From Roseofilum acuticapitatum BLCC-M154 (GTDB lineage: Bacteria; Cyanobacteriota; Cyanobacteriia; Cyanobacteriales; Desertifilaceae), in the NCBI RefSeq assembly GCF_030068475.1, contig NZ_JAQOSP010000116.1, positions 1 to 64,000 of the forward strand: a stretch of DNA of 64,000 nucleotides, given 5' to 3'. Below the pieces are notes generated by a model, which was not told where the DNA came from, searched no databases, and worked only from the letters and a program-made list of their open reading frames with translations. The position numbers and the translations under genes were made by a program. Below, one piece after another: positions 30,376 through 63,628 of the stretch. Position 1 is the stretch's first letter. Every line of letters starts with the position of its first letter.

Positions 30376-30895
30376 CAGTTGGGTGGAGAGTCAAGTCATA
30401 CAGCGCTTCGCGCTGTATCGGTGGACAGTAGGAAAAGATCCCCCCTTGCCCCCTGCTTTTTAAGCAGGATTTTCCGCAAGCGGACATGAAAGGGGGATCA
30501 AGATGTCCCACATAAAGCGCGAAAACTGCTGTATCAAGTCCGGATAAAGGGTGAAGAAGCGGGCAAGATGCCCGCACTCCTCAAATCCCTTGAAGAAGCG
30601 GGCAAGATGCCCGCACTCCTCAAATCCCTTGATATGACTGGAGTGGGAGCATCTTGCTCCCTAAATTTTTAATCAGGGTATTTCCGCTTCGCGGACATGA
30701 ACAATCGGACTTGATATGATATCAAGTCCGGTTTCCGCAAGCGGACATGAAAATTTGTGAAGAAGCGGGCAAGATGCCCGCACTCCTCAAATCCCTTGAT
30801 ATGACTGGAGTGGGAGCGTCTCGCTCCCTGGATTTTAATCATGGTATTTCCGCTTCGCGGACATGAACAATCGGACTTGATATCAGAGGGAGGAA
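30376..30895. repeat. Dense palindromic repeat array with nested insertion
   Basis: About 520 bases with no gene. Left part: CAGCGCTTCGCGCTGTATC, then a GATCCCCCCTTG..AAGGGGGATC inverted element split by TTTCCGCAAGCGGACATGAA. Then a 39-base tandem duplication carrying GCGGGCAAGATGCCCGC starts at 30552 and 30591. After that GGGAGCATCTTGCTCCC, TTTCCGCTTCGCGGACATGA and a second full copy from about 30760. It looks like repeated insertion of small elements into one another. Confidence 0.88.
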
Positions 30896-54969: not shown

Positions 54970-56256
54970 ATGATTTTATCTGAAACTGCATCCGATCCTA
55001 TTGATATCTTGATTGTTGATGATACACCGGTCAATCTTCGTCTACTCTCGGATATGCTAGAACAGCGCGATTACAATGTCCGCAAAGCTCTGAATGGTAA
55101 AATGGCATTGCTGGCAACTGAAAATAAAATCCCTAATTTGATTTTGTTGGATATTAACATGCCGGAAATGAATGGGTATCAGGTTTGCGAACAGTTAAAA
55201 CAATCGGAGAAGACTCAGCAAATTCCTGTAATTTTTATTAGTGCTTTAGATGAACCGACAGATAAAATCAAGGCTTTTCAGGTGGGGGGAGTCGATTATG
55301 TGACTAAACCCTTTGCTGTGGAAGAAGTTTTAGCCCGAATCACTCATCAATTAGAGTTACAAAGACTGACTCGTGATTTGCGCGATCGCAATCAAGAGCT
55401 AGAGGCTACTTTAACTGAATTAAAGATGACTCAAGTGCAATTAATCCAAAAAGAGAAAATGTCGAGTTTGGCAGAATTGGTTGCAGGAGTCGCTCACCAA
55501 ATTAATAATCCAATTAGTTTTATTTATGGTAATTTTGAGCCGGCCAAGGAGTATATTAATGATTTAATTAAAATCATTCATTTTTATGAAGAACACTATC
55601 CAGAATCTTTGCAGAGAGAGGATAATCCTGTAAACGAATTAGATTTTGAGTTCCTGAAATCTGACTTAATGGATTTAATGCAATCGATGTATCATGGAGC
55701 CGATCGCATTCGCTCTATTGTTTTAACTCTGCAAAAGTTTTCCCATCTGGATGAAGCGGATGTCAAGATTTTAGGCATTAATCAAGAACTGGAAAGCACT
55801 CTAACCTTGATTCAATATAGTCTAGACTCTTATAAGAATCATCTATCTGTTCATTGGATTAAAGATTATGGTAATCTCCCTAAAATCACCGGTTGTCCGA
55901 GGGATTTAAATCAGGCTTTTTTAAATATTTTTAATAATGCTATTGAAGCACTAGAAGACTGTCCGGAAATGCTTGAACCTACAATTGGTATTCAAACGAA
56001 GGTTGCAGAAAATAATCGGGTAAAAATTGTAATTAAAAATAATGGTAGGGGTCTCTCAGACCAAGTACGCTCGCAGATTTTTAATCCATTTTTTACAACT
56101 AAAATGGATCGTAAAGCTCAAGGCTTAGGGTTGTCTATTAGCCATCAAATTATTGTGGAGCAACATGGGGGCAGTTTAAGTTGTGAGTGTTTGCCCGGTG
56201 GAGAAACGGCTTTTATTATTGAATTGCCGATTAAGGGAAAAATTAAGGAGCGGTAG
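54970..56256 (+). CDS. Response-regulator/histidine-kinase protein
   Basis: A 428-residue protein. The receiver domain (1-125) has IVDDTPVN, Asp61 in LLDINMPEMNG and Lys in VTKPF. A coiled coil (130-165) leads to a kinase with H-box GVAHQINNPISFIY (His176) and ATPase N-box NIFNNAIEAL and G-box GLGLSISH. The REC-first order fits a kinase controlled by another kinase, and the hybrid kinase 50 bases upstream is the obvious partner. No DNA-binding output is present. Confidence 0.9.
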   Translation: MILSETASDPIDILIVDDTPVNLRLLSDMLEQRDYNVRKALNGKMALLATENKIPNLILLDINMPEMNGYQVCEQLKQSEKTQQIPVIFISALDEPTDKIKAFQVGGVDYVTKPFAVEEVLARITHQLELQRLTRDLRDRNQELEATLTELKMTQVQLIQKEKMSSLAELVAGVAHQINNPISFIYGNFEPAKEYINDLIKIIHFYEEHYPESLQREDNPVNELDFEFLKSDLMDLMQSMYHGADRIRSIVLTLQKFSHLDEADVKILGINQELESTLTLIQYSLDSYKNHLSVHWIKDYGNLPKITGCPRDLNQAFLNIFNNAIEALEDCPEMLEPTIGIQTKVAENNRVKIVIKNNGRGLSDQVRSQIFNPFFTTKMDRKAQGLGLSISHQIIVEQHGGSLSCECLPGGETAFIIELPIKGKIKER

Positions 56257-56261
56257 GTTGG

Positions 56262-56336
56262 AGGAGTGCGGGCATCTTGCCCGCTTCTCTTTTGCCCTTT
56301 TCATGTCCGCTTGCGGAAACCGGACTTGAGATCGGG
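56262..56336. repeat. Palindromic repeat element, copy 4 (partial)
   Basis: GCGGGCATCTTGCCCGC, TTCATGTCCGCTTGCGGAAA and CCGGACTTGAGAT, in the same order as in the copy at the left window edge. It lies between converging genes and could act as a terminator for both. Confidence 0.85.
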
Positions 56337-58747: not shown

Positions 58748-58903
58748 CTACTCAGGATTTAACATCCCCGCAATTTCTACCACCCATTGCTGACGCTCTT
58801 GATGATCGAGGGCGAGAATTTCGGCCCTAGACCAGTGAAAATGAAAAGCGATAAAGGCTACCTCCCGATACAACTGGGGTAGGGGGTAGCCAGTTACTCC
58901 CCC
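58748..58903 (-). CDS. DUF6760-like small tail protein, probably made by -1 frameshift
   Basis: A 51-residue frame reading GGVTGYPLPQLYREVAFIAF, then HFHWSRAEILALDHQERQQW. I recall this GYP..LY.EVA.IA..FHW pattern from small proteins (DUF6760) in contractile injection clusters. It has no ATG, GTG or TTG in the open stretch from the upstream TAA (58931) to GTA ACT; the frame simply continues from the preceding gene in the -1 frame. A GGGGGAG run at the junction suggests slippage, as in phage tail chaperone G/GT pairs. A rare start codon is the other possibility. Confidence 0.65.
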   Translation of the reverse strand, partial: GGVTGYPLPQLYREVAFIAFHFHWSRAEILALDHQERQQWVVEIAGMLNPE

Positions 58904-59223
58904 GATAGAATTAATTCTGCCTCCGTAGGGTTAATGCTGTTGTAGACATCGAGCAGGTAATCTAAATCGATGAGAAAGAGGTTTTCTAAGGCTTCTGGAG
59001 TGAGGGAGGGGAGTGTACCGAGTTGCACAATGGTGCGCGAGAGCATGACGAGAGGGCGATAATCGGGGTAGTCGGAGAGAGTCGGGTGGCGATCGCCCAT
59101 TATCTCATCTTGTCCTGTCGCTAGACGTATAATCCCTTCTCGATGCACCGTTCCTTCCTCATCCACCAACCCTTTCGGTAAGACAAAGCTAAACCCGATT
59201 AAATCATCCCTTTCTTCAGTCAT
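58894..59223 (-). CDS. Contractile-injection tail assembly chaperone-like protein A
   Basis: A 109-residue protein. FSFVLPKGLVDEEGTVHREG, then IIRLATGQDEI and LSRTIVQLGTL; the same pattern occurs in its paralogue 130 bases upstream (FDFTLPKGYLDSEGNLHRQG). Such proteins sit after the tube genes in cyanobacterial injection clusters, where phages have a tail-assembly chaperone. The ATG is formed by the end of a palindromic repeat (TTGATATG), with no clear ribosome-binding site of its own. Its 3' end carries the GGGGGAG run where the -1 frame continues. Confidence 0.72.
   Translation of the reverse strand: MTEERDDLIGFSFVLPKGLVDEEGTVHREGIIRLATGQDEIMGDRHPTLSDYPDYRPLVMLSRTIVQLGTLPSLTPEALENLFLIDLDYLLDVYNSINPTEAELILSGE
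58897..58903 (-). promoter_or_regulatory. Candidate -1 frameshift site GGGGGAG
   Basis: Read leftward, the zero frame is TCG GGG GAG TAA. The run of five G lets a Gly tRNA slip back one base to GGG, giving GGG GGA GTA ACT and entering the DUF6760-like frame. Position right before the stop and the similarity to GGGAAAG of lambda support it. Confidence 0.45.
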
Positions 59224-59372
59224 ATCAAGTCCGATTGTTCATGTCCGCGAAGTGGAAATACCATGATTAAAAATTTAGGGAGCGAGACGCTCCCACTCCA
59301 GTAATATCAAGGGATTAGAGGAGTGCGGGCATCTTGCCCGCTTCTTAACAAATTAACCGGACTTGATATCAT
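59224..59372. repeat. Palindromic repeat element, copy 5, between two operon genes
   Basis: A full copy: ATATCAAGTCCGATTG, CCGCGAAGTGG, GGGAGCGAGACGCTCCC, GCGGGCATCTTGCCCGC, CCGGACTTGATATC. Its left edge supplies the start codon of the next gene downstream; its right edge supplies the last residues and stop of the gene before. Confidence 0.9.
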
Positions 59373-59670
59373 TCTCTACCGGTTCCAACTCATTAATTTG
59401 ACGATAAAAATCCTGAAGATAACTTAAATCTACAGCAAACATATTTTCCACCACAGCCGGAGAAATTTCCTGTAGTGTTCCCAATTGAATAATCACCCGC
59501 GCCAAAATAATCACCGTCGCATAAGCCGGATTATCCATCACCCTCGGATCGCGCATGGGGATAATCTCATCCATCGCACGAGATAAGCGCATCTTTCCCT
59601 GACGGTGCAGATTTCCCTCGGAGTCTAAATAGCCTTTCGGCAACGTAAAATCAAACTCAGTTTGCAGCAT
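59353..59670 (-). CDS. Contractile-injection tail assembly chaperone-like protein B
   Basis: A 105-residue paralogue of the next gene: FDFTLPKGYLDSEGNLHRQG, DEIIPMRDPRVMDN, ILARVIIQLGTLQEISPAVV. The last residues (DIKSG) and the TAA are encoded by the repeat at 59224-59372, so its original C-terminus was probably cut or replaced. The role is inferred from position and paralogy. Confidence 0.72.
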   Translation of the reverse strand: MLQTEFDFTLPKGYLDSEGNLHRQGKMRLSRAMDEIIPMRDPRVMDNPAYATVIILARVIIQLGTLQEISPAVVENMFAVDLSYLQDFYRQINELEPVENDIKSG

Positions 59671-59798: not shown

Positions 59799-60317
59799 CT
59801 ACGGGGGCGAAATCCGCTTAAACACCTCACAAGCCATTTCCAACTCTTCGCAAGCGAGTTCTGAACTCGAAGCCGTGTTATCCGTGACACTATAGCTAAT
59901 CGGCCAAGCATTCTCAAACTGAAACAGAGCGCCAATATCACCATTCTGACGATAAATGGCGATCGACCCACTGCGGCGCTGCCTAGACCAATTCCCTTGC
60001 TGTACTGCATTCAACCAGTTCCAAAGAGTTTCTGAGCTACTTAATCCGCGTCTAAGGCTAATATTATCTACCGTTTTTTTAGCACCAGGCAGTTTAGAGG
60101 TATACAATCTGCCTCGCTTGGCTTTACCCCAAGGTTCCGGAAAAATTTCCGTAAATTCCACTACTTCTTGAGCAACCTTAAAGCCTTTGCACTCCATAAA
60201 TAGTCCATCAACCCCATCCTTTGACTCATCTAAATGCAATTCCACGTAAAACCGGCAAGCCGTCAGAATTTCAGGGTACTTCAGTCTATTCTTAAAAGCA
60301 TCTTTACTTTGTGCCAT
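59799..60317 (-). CDS. Contractile-injection tube protein 3 (gp19-like)
   Basis: A 172-residue phage T4 gp19/Hcp-fold tube protein. RFYVELHLDESKDGVDGLFM and ECKGFKVAQEVVEFTEIFPE match the opening strands; NISLRRGLSSSETLWNWLNA is the hallmark middle; SGSIAIYRQNGDIGALFQFE the last sheet. One of three paralogues in the cluster; such systems often use one for the main tube and others near the baseplate or cap. It follows a strong hairpin in the gap. Confidence 0.88.
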   Translation of the reverse strand: MAQSKDAFKNRLKYPEILTACRFYVELHLDESKDGVDGLFMECKGFKVAQEVVEFTEIFPEPWGKAKRGRLYTSKLPGAKKTVDNISLRRGLSSSETLWNWLNAVQQGNWSRQRRSGSIAIYRQNGDIGALFQFENAWPISYSVTDNTASSSELACEELEMACEVFKRISPP

Positions 60318-60362
60318 TTCTGTTTAAGCTTACAATCCATAAGATACTGGAAATCAAACCGA

Positions 60363-60392
60363 TAAGACAAGGGATTAAAATCCCTTGTCTTA
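60363..60392. terminator. 13-bp hairpin between tube genes 3 and 2
   Basis: TAAGACAAGGGAT pairs perfectly with ATCCCTTGTCTTA around a four-base loop. Read leftward it is not followed by a T-run, so it may be an attenuator or an mRNA end-stabiliser that sets the ratio of the tube proteins rather than a full stop. Confidence 0.55.
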
Positions 60393-60411
60393 ATTTAATT
60401 GTCTTCTGGAA

Positions 60412-60912
60412 TTATACGGTTGGCACTGGTGCAATCTGTGTTCCTTCCGTCGGGACTTTTCTAATCCCAGTATGGCTAATTTCTATCGTTTCCTTAAATA
60501 AATCACTGCTGTCAGCGCCAGCTTGAGTTGTCGTATATTTAGCCGGAATAGCATTCAGAATATTATACCTTGCGCCTTCCTTCCCATCCTGCTTATACAT
60601 AATCAAAGAAGCATCGCCAGCTTCTTGTACAGCAGTAGTTGTACCCCCAGTCATGGATGAGGGATGGGAGCTGGTATACCAGTTAATGAGCGCATCATTT
60701 TCTACGGTTGTCACAAACTCTAAGGTCATATTCTCATAGCTTACATGAGAAGGGGTAATCTGGGTTCCAGCAGACACATCCTTGCCGGCATAAATGGCTT
60801 GTCCTTCGGCTGCGGGTTCAATGCTCATGGAAATACCACTCACTTTTTGTAATTGTAGGGTGGTAATGCCTTTCAATTCAAAATAAAACCGGGCTTGGGT
60901 TAAATATTCCAT
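60412..60912 (-). CDS. Contractile-injection tube protein 2 (gp19-like)
   Basis: A 166-residue tube-family protein. YLTQARFYFELKGITTLQLQ, QKVSGISMSIEPAAEGQ, and LIMYKQDGKEGARYNILNAI fit the gp19 fold. It differs markedly from paralogues 1 and 3. It has a Thr/Gly/Ala-rich insert (TTTAVQEAGDASLIMYK). Transcribed leftward from the sheath side. Confidence 0.85.
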   Translation of the reverse strand: MEYLTQARFYFELKGITTLQLQKVSGISMSIEPAAEGQAIYAGKDVSAGTQITPSHVSYENMTLEFVTTVENDALINWYTSSHPSSMTGGTTTAVQEAGDASLIMYKQDGKEGARYNILNAIPAKYTTTQAGADSSDLFKETIEISHTGIRKVPTEGTQIAPVPTV

Positions 60913-61232
60913 AGTTGAATATCCTCTTTAGATAGTTAGGAGAAACGGAAAAAGGTACAGAGGTTAAGTTTCTAGTGCCCTGATGCAGCTCATTGGGTAC
61001 TTTAGATGTTGGGTAATGCGAGCATCTTGCTCGCTAGAGGAAGGCAGCGAGCAAGATGCTCGCACTATATAGCAGTTTTTGCTGTTATGAGGTACATTAA
61101 TGACTGTTTTGAACGATCGCTAAAATAGCTCAAAGCGCTACCCAGTCTGCTGTTTGTTCCCCCCATTCCCCCATCCCCCCATCACAGCGCGAAGCGCTGT
61201 ATCTATTGCATCATTTTAGATGAAACCATCCA
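60913..61232. repeat. Repeat-rich gap between tube genes 2 and 1
   Basis: 320 bases without a gene. GCGAGCATCTTGCTCGC (about 61018) and GCGAGCAAGATGCTCGC (about 61052) are two inverted modules; then a CCCCCATCCCCCCATC tract and CAGCGCGAAGCGCTG near 61185. The last also occurs near 30405 as CAGCGCTTCGCGCTG. Confidence 0.8.
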
Positions 61233-61736
61233 CTAAGCTGCGTTTGACATGGCGACAACTTTAGTGATTTTCTCAGCGACAAACTCATAGGTTTCCATGA
61301 CCAATTCCCCAGAAGTTGCATCGACATCAGAAACTGAATACTTTTTAATCCAAGCTCGGTCTAGATTCCATCGTAGAACTTCCTTATTACTAGGATCGTA
61401 GACAACCAGCGAACCGGATTTACGACTATTGGCCCAATTGCCACCCCCCTCTTCTTCTTTAGGCATCACATCGATAAACCAGTCAAATAGCCGTCGAGCT
61501 GCGCCTTGGGTATCATCATTGACGTAAACTTCAATGGTCATGGAGGGGTTGGTTTCATAACCGGCGACCGTGGTATGTCTGGCTCCACCATGTCTACCAC
61601 TGTGAATGGGTTTATCGCCACCGGTTACTTTACCTTCATAGGTTAGAGCTGCCATACTTTTGACTTCTAATTCTTCTAAGCCTTCAAAGTTTAGATAAAA
61701 TCGGTTGGCTGTAGTTGTATAAACTGGAGGTGCCAT
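61233..61736 (-). CDS. Contractile-injection tube protein 1 (gp19-like)
   Basis: A 167-residue tube-family protein. RFYLNFEGLEELEVKSMAAL, then VTGGDKPIHSGRHGGARHTT and ARRLFDWFIDVMP follow the gp19 pattern, with SGSLVVYDPSNKEVLRWNLD the last sheet. It lies next to the sheath gene, the usual place of the main inner tube. It starts with an ATG 176 bases after the sheath stop. Confidence 0.88.
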   Translation of the reverse strand: MAPPVYTTTANRFYLNFEGLEELEVKSMAALTYEGKVTGGDKPIHSGRHGGARHTTVAGYETNPSMTIEVYVNDDTQGAARRLFDWFIDVMPKEEEGGGNWANSRKSGSLVVYDPSNKEVLRWNLDRAWIKKYSVSDVDATSGELVMETYEFVAEKITKVVAMSNAA

Positions 61737-61749
61737 GGTGTGAGTTTCC

Positions 61750-61912
61750 TTTTACTGATGGGTAATGGGTAATAAGTAATGGGTAATAGGTAATGGGTAA
61801 GAATTTACAGCAGTTTTTGCGCTTTATGTGGGACATTGCCGATCCCCCTAAATCCCCCTTTTCAAGGGGGACTTCTAATGCCCCCCTTTTTTAAGGGGGG
61901 GGTTGGGGAGGA
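61750..61912. repeat. GGGTAAT short repeats and a CCCCCTTTT inverted element
   Basis: First GGGTAATGGGTAATAAGTAA-type units, then CCCCCTAAATCCCCCTTTTCAAGGGGG (GATCCCCCTAAA..) and a second AAGGGGGGG arm. This is a common cyanobacterial inverted element, also split by another repeat near 30440. No gene. Confidence 0.75.
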
Positions 61913-63628
61913 TCAACCTTCGCCTTCAGCCGTCCACTGACTGATGCGGAAGATGACAAATTCAGCCGGTCGCACGGGAGCAATACCGACTTCTACATAC
62001 AATCGACCGAGCATCATACTTTGGGGCGTATTGATATCGGCATCGCACTTAACATAGAATGCTTGAGCGGCAGATCCTCCCATGAGAGCGCCCGATCGCC
62101 ACAAATCTGTTAAGAAGCTGGTAATCGTGCGTTTAACCCGTTGCCACAGGTCTTCATCATTGGGTTCAAACACTACCCATTGCATTCCATTTTCGATGGA
62201 TTTCTCGATGTAGCTCATCAAGCGGCGAACGTTGATATAGCGCCATTGGATATTATCTGGCTCAACCAGAGTTCTCGCTCCCCAAACCCGAATGCCTCGG
62301 TTGGGGAAGGGACGGATACAGTTAATTCCGGCCGGATTGAGCAGTTCCTGTTCCCGGAAATTACAATCGTAGGCTAAACCCATCACCCCTCTAGGCACTT
62401 CATTGGCGGGTGCTTTATAAACGCCTCGCGTTTCATCGGTGCGAGACCAAACCCCAGCCATATAGCCACTGGGAGGAATTGCGACTGGGCGACCGGAATT
62501 TCTGGGATTGGGAACGCGAATCCAGGGATAATAGAGGGCAGCAAACTGGGAACGGCGATTAAATTCTTCTCGCAGCCAACGACTGATTTCTTGGGGTTTT
62601 ACCCGGTCTGGGGGCGGATCGAGAATCACCATCCGGTTGGGAGCGTTGGGAATATCCCCATCGGCCGCTCCTTCACAGAGACTGACCATGACATCCATAA
62701 TGCCGTGGAGTTGGTCGATGTTGATCAGCCCCGCTTCGTAGACTTTCATTAGATCGGGGCAAGCCATGATCGTTACTTCGTCAATCTCGAAGAGTCCGCG
62801 AACCCCGGTGCGGTCATCTCGTACCCCTTCAATGTGTTGGGAGAAGCGATCGGGGGGAGGCATCACCAGGGGAGGACTGATTTCATATACTCCATTACTG
62901 GGTCGTCGGGCTAGGGGAGAGCCACTTATGGATAGGTCTACGGCCGCAATATATTCCGATTCTTCTAAGGCCGTCACCACATAATTGGCCACAGAAGTCT
63001 CGATTTGGGGATTCATGGTCAAGTTTTCAAACCGTTCGAGTTCTTCATCTCCTTGGGCGACGACTACGGTGAAAAATTCCCCGGTATTGGCGGTGATGGT
63101 TGTGCTAGAAGCTTCTGACTCTTCCGGTGGCGGTTTGGGTTCTCCGTCCATAATTTGCACCCGAACGGAGCGATCCATGGGTACGAGGGCGGCATTGATG
63201 GAGCCACTATCGCCAGTGGTCGTTAGGTCAGAACCGGCACGGATGGAAAACTTCAGGGAGGGTCTGTTTCCCCGGTTCATAATGCTGGTTCCGGTTTCGG
63301 TGGCTTCGGGTTCTGGGGAACCAGGTAAGCGCGTGCCGATGCTGACGATCCAGCAACGGCCGCCGCCATTGAGGAACCATCCGTAGACACTTAAGGGGAG
63401 ATAAGCGCCAAAGTCGGTAAACCCATCGGAGTTGGGTCGGCCAAAATATTGCAGATATTGATCCCAAGTGGTAACCAACATCGGTTTAAAGGGTTCTGCG
63501 CCCCCTCGGATGTCTTCGGTAAAACCGACAAAGCCACCTACAGCAGTCGGAACCCCTTCAATGGGACGACTGCCGCGATTGACTTCTTCGATATAAACAC
63601 CGGGAGCGTAATAATCAAGTCTCGCCAT
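61913..63628 (-). CDS. Contractile-injection sheath protein
   Basis: A 571-residue phage-tail-sheath protein. YYAPGVYIEEVNRGSRPIEG is the classical N-terminus; AVGGFVGFTEDIRGG follows. NPAGINCIRPFPNRGIRVWG and NVRRLMSYIEKSIENGMQWV are the C-terminal hallmark of the family (the part that contacts the tube). The central region is a variable surface domain (about 110-245). Length fits single-gene sheaths of thylakoid-anchored injection systems. It is the first gene of the leftward operon; no capsid or terminase gene is near. Confidence 0.95.
   Translation of the reverse strand: MARLDYYAPGVYIEEVNRGSRPIEGVPTAVGGFVGFTEDIRGGAEPFKPMLVTTWDQYLQYFGRPNSDGFTDFGAYLPLSVYGWFLNGGGRCWIVSIGTRLPGSPEPEATETGTSIMNRGNRPSLKFSIRAGSDLTTTGDSGSINAALVPMDRSVRVQIMDGEPKPPPEESEASSTTITANTGEFFTVVVAQGDEELERFENLTMNPQIETSVANYVVTALEESEYIAAVDLSISGSPLARRPSNGVYEISPPLVMPPPDRFSQHIEGVRDDRTGVRGLFEIDEVTIMACPDLMKVYEAGLINIDQLHGIMDVMVSLCEGAADGDIPNAPNRMVILDPPPDRVKPQEISRWLREEFNRRSQFAALYYPWIRVPNPRNSGRPVAIPPSGYMAGVWSRTDETRGVYKAPANEVPRGVMGLAYDCNFREQELLNPAGINCIRPFPNRGIRVWGARTLVEPDNIQWRYINVRRLMSYIEKSIENGMQWVVFEPNDEDLWQRVKRTITSFLTDLWRSGALMGGSAAQAFYVKCDADINTPQSMMLGRLYVEVGIAPVRPAEFVIFRISQWTAEGEG

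Follow-up and report, generated by a model that had tools for sequence, protein, structure and literature searches.

A MITE-like element at the overlap of two genes in a contractile injection cluster of Roseofilum acuticapitatum

The gene B/gene A junction of the injection cluster

We analysed a stretch of 64,000 nucleotides (the window) from Roseofilum acuticapitatum BLCC-M154, whose assembly amounts to 5.22 Mb in 154 contigs. The minus strand of the window carries a contractile injection cluster in the order sheath, three gp19-like tubes, gene B, gene A and a small ORF. Cyanobacterial injection systems of the same kind are described in Anabaena, according to the available part of PMC8894136. 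The features of the locus are as follows.

58748..58873, minus strand: small ORF 3' of gene A, 41 aa from a TTG, probably the last gene of the cluster
58894..59223, minus strand: gene A, 109 aa, paralogue of gene B, with its native N-terminus and a regenerated ATG
59220..59222: target duplication, copy 1, TCA on the plus strand and TGA on the coding strand, which supplies the TG of the gene A ATG
59223..59368, minus strand: MITE-like element of 146 bp with terminal inverted repeats TATCAAGTCCG and without a transposase gene, its edges set by the empty site of a relative (G001)
59223..59233, plus strand: terminal inverted repeat at the gene A start, whose last coding-strand base (59223) is the A of the gene A ATG
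59278..59294, minus strand: terminator-like hairpin within the element, GGGAGCG TCT CGCTCCC, then TAAATTTTTA
59353..59670, minus strand: gene B, 105 aa, phrog_508-like (putative tail assembly chaperone), whose last four residues, IKSG, and TAA are element sequence
59358..59368, minus strand: terminal inverted repeat at the gene B end, reading T ATC AAG TCC GG(T TAA), that is IKSG and a stop
59369..59371: target duplication, copy 2, TCA on the plus strand
59799..63628, minus strand: upstream injection-system genes, with the sheath at 61913-63628 and gp19-like tubes at 61233-61736, 60412-60912 and 59799-60317

Genes A and B are designated putative tail assembly chaperones solely from their match to the phage family phrog_508 (E 5.4e-6 for gene A and 1.8e-4 for gene B), and searches of Pfam and NCBIfam with both proteins at E <= 1 gave no match. 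In six genomes of the genus, the A-type copies share 43-51% identity with gene B. Among 80 related loci (L001-L080), tandem B-like paralogues occur in 19, all cyanobacterial, while the remaining 61, mostly from Streptomyces and Chloroflexi with one cyanobacterial locus, have one B-like copy in the stretch examined. A sequence like the 41-aa ORF also follows gene A in the loci of UBA2566 and R. halophilum (L001 and L002), where gene B is 93% and 95% identical to that of the window, respectively.

An empty site in the same genus

On the coding strand of R. acuticapitatum, the junction reads GTAGAGAATGA-TATCAAGTCCGG...TCGGACTTGATA-TGACTGAAG. At the homologous place, G001, which belongs to the same genus, reads GTAGAGAATGACTGAAGAAAGGGATG, and R. 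acuticapitatum differs from it by the 146-bp element and by a 3-bp target duplication (TGA). G001 thus has the exact empty site GAGAATGACTGAAG, letter for letter GTAGAGAATGACTGAAGAAAGGGATGATTT. A 2-bp duplication of TA, considered for the window element, is ruled out by this empty site, which shows 3 bp. The earlier note on this DNA had proposed that a repeat was inserted between two co-directed genes, and this is borne out by the empty site; both reading frames are intact.

The element has the hallmarks of a MITE: it bears TATCAAGTCCG at both ends, it is flanked by a 3-bp TNA duplication with an empty site in G001, and it is short (146 bp), multicopy (47 BLAST matches and 191 exact 12-mer ends) and devoid of a transposase gene. 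With at most one mismatch, the window holds 12 matches to the 11-bp end TATCAAGTCCG, where shuffled sequences average 0.91 and 0 of 100 shuffles reach 12. No match to the window was found in Rfam at the gathering threshold, nor to the element in the plasmid collection.

In G001, gene B ends in VEND and a stop, gene A begins with MTEERDD, and the two genes overlap by 8 nt (ATGACTGA). The overlap is the same in three other genomes (G003, G004 and G005), where it occurs with ATGAGTGA and gene B ends in VENE, whereas in G002 the two genes do not overlap and gene B ends in VESE. The C-terminus of gene B therefore differs from that of repeat-free relatives (VEND, VENE or VESE before the stop in all five), as the earlier note would have it. 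L001 and L002 match G005 and G003 at the junction and, being probably identical genomes, were not counted again. Because the element is missing from the B/A junction in all five other genomes of the genus (G001-G005), the simplest reading of these alignments is an insertion in the R. acuticapitatum line. Judged by the dS of gene B, G003 is nearer to R. acuticapitatum (0.17) than G001 (0.32).

The ends of genes B and A

The 3' end of gene B reads ...GAG AAT GAT ATC AAG TCC GGT TAA, that is VENDIKSG and a stop. The earlier note had read DIKSG and TAA from the repeat; IKSG and the stop are indeed wholly element sequence, but the D codon (GAT) is made of the duplicated target and the first base of the element. 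The gene A start (...CTTGAT ATG ACT GAA) is likewise composite, since only the A of its ATG (59223) comes from the element as claimed, and TG (59222-59221) belongs to the duplicated target. The further proposals that the repeat gives gene A a new start and that the original one may be missing do not hold: the N-terminus MTEERDD is identical in R. acuticapitatum and in repeat-free G001, so the original start is present in the relative and was regenerated at the insertion. No other upstream start is possible for gene A, because an in-frame TGA lies 18 nt before the ATG with no start codon in between.

Over 101 codons, gene B differs from its G001 counterpart by 17 synonymous and 0 non-synonymous changes, and gene A, which is less conserved than gene B, shows a dN/dS of 0.29, these values pooling the time before and after the insertion. 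The match to gene B ends by residue 98 in 70 of the 80 related loci, and the length of the ORF at its 3' end varies among them, which places the new tail in a weakly conserved part of the protein. In the other 10 loci the match extends to residue 101-105, so this tail is not wholly unconstrained.

The insertion removed the overlap of genes B and A. The 8-nt overlap contains two TGA sites, of which only the first yields the observed outcome; as read from the sequence, an insertion into the second (CTGA) would keep the gene B stop and break gene A.

The repeat family in Roseofilum and its order

The 12-mer end TATCAAGTCCGG occurs 108 + 83 = 191 times in R. acuticapitatum (reversed control, 0 + 0). 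Elsewhere in the genus, exact 12-mer ends number 79 in G001 and 45 in G003, where the control gives 1; the other three genomes have 10, 10 and 9. At least one exact end is present in 97 of 195 genomes of the order; outside the genus the number per genome is mostly small and reaches 35 at most.

We drew 48 elements from the 30 best BLAST places, 30 listed ends and 60 further stretches, a sample that covers most of 100 listed ends, themselves part of the 191 in this genome. TNA stands on both sides of 44 of these elements, and it is identical on the two sides in 32 (TGA 10, TCA 9, TTA 8, TAA 5). The remaining 16 elements lack an identical duplication, four of them also lacking TNA on a side, and no duplication longer than TNA was found among the 48. 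In the stretches examined, TNA precedes 133 of 141 distinct exact ends. Fifty-one of the 141 read TATCAAGTCCGG(A/T)TAA, one frame of which encodes IKSG and a stop. An ORF of at least 80 codons enters four of the 141 ends, and two of these four end in IKSG and a stop, namely at the window copy and at a copy on another contig (L183).

Relation to IS630-like elements

Ends of the TATCAAGTCCG type, with 0-2 mismatches, border IS630-type transposase genes or remnants at five loci (L213, L214, L220, L232 and L233). L213 (1142 bp) and L214 (1185 bp), both from genomes of the order, have ends with 0 mismatches; the transposase fragment of the former matches HTH_33 and HTH_29, and that of the latter matches DDE_3. 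L232 and L233, found on cyanobacterial plasmids by similarity to the L213 fragment, have 1-2 mismatches per end, and a third plasmid locus (L231) has one end only. L220 is a transposase remnant in G004, of the same genus, with 0 and 2 mismatches at its ends. Similar proteins from Thermus plasmids carry an IS630-family annotation.

Within R. acuticapitatum itself, profile searches with DDE_3 and DDE_Tnp_1_2 gave no match, neither of two DDE_Tnp_1 matches has paired family ends in the stretch examined, and the L213 fragment found no match, with five partial matches in G004. The flanks of the transposase loci are TTA/TTA in L214 and L220 and unequal in L213 (TGA/GGA), L232 (TTA/TAA) and L233 (TAA/TTA).

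IS630 elements duplicate a 2-bp TA. ISTth6, a member of this family, is listed with 2-bp direct repeats in the accessible part of PMC6352166. The window element has the same ends as the IS630-like insertion sequences with an HTH_33/HTH_29 and DDE_3 transposase; it differs from them in having no transposase, and its duplication is of 3 bp against 2 bp for ISTth6 (PMC6352166, same part), as shown by the empty site and by the identical TNA of 32 of the 48 elements. By sequence, the element shares its ends with IS630-like elements, which points to an IS630-like origin, but since the duplication is a 3-bp TNA we do not class it as a member of IS630.

Insertion at the overlap and its likely consequences

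These observations are best explained by a non-autonomous, TNA-targeting MITE that inserted into the first TGA of AATGACTGA, at the 8-nt overlap of genes B and A. With this TGA duplicated, AATGA came to precede the element and TGA to follow it. The element closes with ...CTTGATA, and its terminal A re-formed ATGA with the following TGA, so that gene A kept its start codon and its whole protein. Gene B lost its own stop, now reads 16 nt into the element and has gained IKSG and TAA, and the overlap has become a 129-nt gap (59224-59352) with hairpins. We hold it highly probable that a TNA-targeting MITE inserted in this way, near-neutrally, with the gene A start rebuilt and a tail added to gene B. 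For the proteins themselves, the change was most likely nearly neutral, because neither reading frame is shifted and most of the conserved part of gene B precedes the tail. Most likely, then, a parasitic insertion was tolerated because both frames survive, and genes B and A are presumably still co-expressed. The operon would then be unbroken, as the earlier note had it, although the insertion did away with the 8-nt overlap and brought in a terminator-like hairpin.

Transposable elements can in principle be excised precisely, and the element could be an old repeat that the five relatives lost in this way. This is extremely improbable, given that all five lack it and that exact ends are commonest in R. 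acuticapitatum. It is rather unlikely, though worth weighing, that the element is polar, its hairpin ending transcription or its folded RNA blocking translation, with gene A and the following small gene silenced or reduced and decaying. A terminator-like hairpin does lie on the coding strand within the element (two overlapping matches, against a mean of 0.6 and an sd of 0.9 in shuffles), and the predicted fold pairs the inverted ends with a probability of about 1, which would bury the gene A start. However, the T run of this hairpin is offset by TAAA, gene A is intact with the dN/dS given above, and such repeats can be co-transcribed with operons, as the consulted part of PMC3049150 reports for BOX elements.

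The same predicted mRNA fold, in which the pairing probability of the inverted ends is 0.99-1.0 at all 12 positions tested, also bears on a coupling of the two genes by the hairpin: the paired ends would hide the GGA and ATG of gene A until a ribosome ending at the gene B TAA frees them, and the element would have swapped overlap coupling for hairpin coupling. When a terminating ribosome is modelled on the gene B stop with a smaller and a larger footprint, the mean unpaired probability over 21 nt at the gene A start does rise from 0.18 to 0.45 and 0.48, but the value of 0.36 for comparison in G001 came from a shorter stretch. For the A, T and G of the ATG, the unpaired probabilities are 0.01, 0.04 and 1.00 without a ribosome, 0.54, 0.19 and 0.16 under the smaller footprint, and 0.03, 0.01 and 0.01 under the larger one, where the GGA is paired too (0.03-0.05) in another structure. 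Since the ATG is mostly paired in both ribosome models, these predictions offer a weak suggestion of such coupling, and any MITE transcript would pair its inverted ends as a matter of course. Outside the genus, the match to gene A starts 40-214 nt past the gene B stop in the 17 tandem loci, so that a tight overlap is no general need. We consider this coupling improbable. We also asked whether the ends are made to do no harm between genes: given TNA targeting and a terminal A, an insertion into the TGA of an ATGA overlap would always re-form ATG for the next gene, one frame of the end would give the previous gene IKSG and a stop, and a ribosome-opened hairpin would couple the two. A habit of joining two genes was rejected on the count of the 48 elements in both orientations: five close an ORF of at least 80 codons lying upstream, and of these the window copy alone starts an ORF of this size as well. 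As the window copy is the sole one to do both, ends built for junctions are little supported and very improbable.

Comparison with known repeats

Prokaryotic MITEs such as the cyanobacterial Nezha are short and non-coding, with inverted ends, a target duplication and many copies (PMC10969869, in the part available), as found here; the window family has TATCAAGTCCG ends and a TNA duplication, and is compared with Nezha on the shared traits. Repeat-supplied stop or start codons are already in print. For the BOX repeats of Streptococcus pneumoniae, the available text of PMC3049150 counts 58 overlapping CDSs, of which 36 meet the repeat at their very 3' end and take the stop from it, and three expressed cases with a repeat-encoded start codon. 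BOX elements are modular repeats of another phylum, whereas the single window copy lengthens one protein by a tail and restores a native start codon where two genes overlapped. In Acinetobacter, one copy of MITEAba12 is joined to a gene at its 3' end and, as here, provides the stop, but the fused protein falls 398 aa short of its homologue (PMC6382973, portion consulted), while gene B loses only its original stop. The palindromic elements of Rickettsia also add repeat-encoded residues in frame to unrelated proteins; many of them are in-frame fusions inside ORFs (PMC10969869, same part), and the window element contributes four residues at the very end.

A native start regenerated at an overlap from the terminal base of an element and the target duplication was not found in the open-access literature searched. 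The window case is a tidy but ordinary MITE insertion into an operon. It gives a clean before-and-after view: in a contractile injection cluster, a mini-transposon entered a pair of overlapping genes and destroyed neither, and another genome of the genus preserves the empty site. It also provides a setting for asking whether inverted ends in an mRNA alter translational coupling, and it draws attention to an abundant repeat family of the genus with a TNA duplication despite ends common to IS630-like transposons.

Further copies of the family

The second copy that ends an ORF in IKSG and a stop (L183, the same as L088, 727-872; contig C53 of R. acuticapitatum from 25026) closes an unrelated, putative thioesterase-like ORF as LNCHIKSG. 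The G003 homologue of this ORF ends in LNCRL and a stop. The predicted empty site aligns without gaps in G004 and G005, and in G003 with two gaps of 1 nt each, a few bases beyond the junction; in these three genomes the site has neither an element nor a TATA remnant, and the target is TCG against TCA. At the end of the same gene in G001 (contig C42; L237, about 1346-1500), there is a different insertion, bounded by TATAGCGC...GCGCTATA, which ends the protein a few residues sooner. The site may be a hot spot for insertions. For another copy (L177), the two halves of the empty-site query match different contigs in G001 and G003, and the left match in G001 extends 18 nt beyond the junction. A copy at 105606-105756 of R. 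acuticapitatum contig C116 (L107, 1505-1650) lies inside an ORF with a putative HNH motif and appears to interrupt the gene.

In the window, two pairs of family ends are adjacent, 3 bases apart (30532-30716 and 30720-30882), and a partial, diverged copy with the end TCTCAAGTCCG (56257-56331) lies just past the stop of a response-regulator/kinase-like ORF (54970-56256). Finally, a family end occupies bases 127-138 of contigs C8, C18, C20 and C44 of R. acuticapitatum, and several further contigs start or finish in family copies, so the family probably breaks the assembly of this genome.
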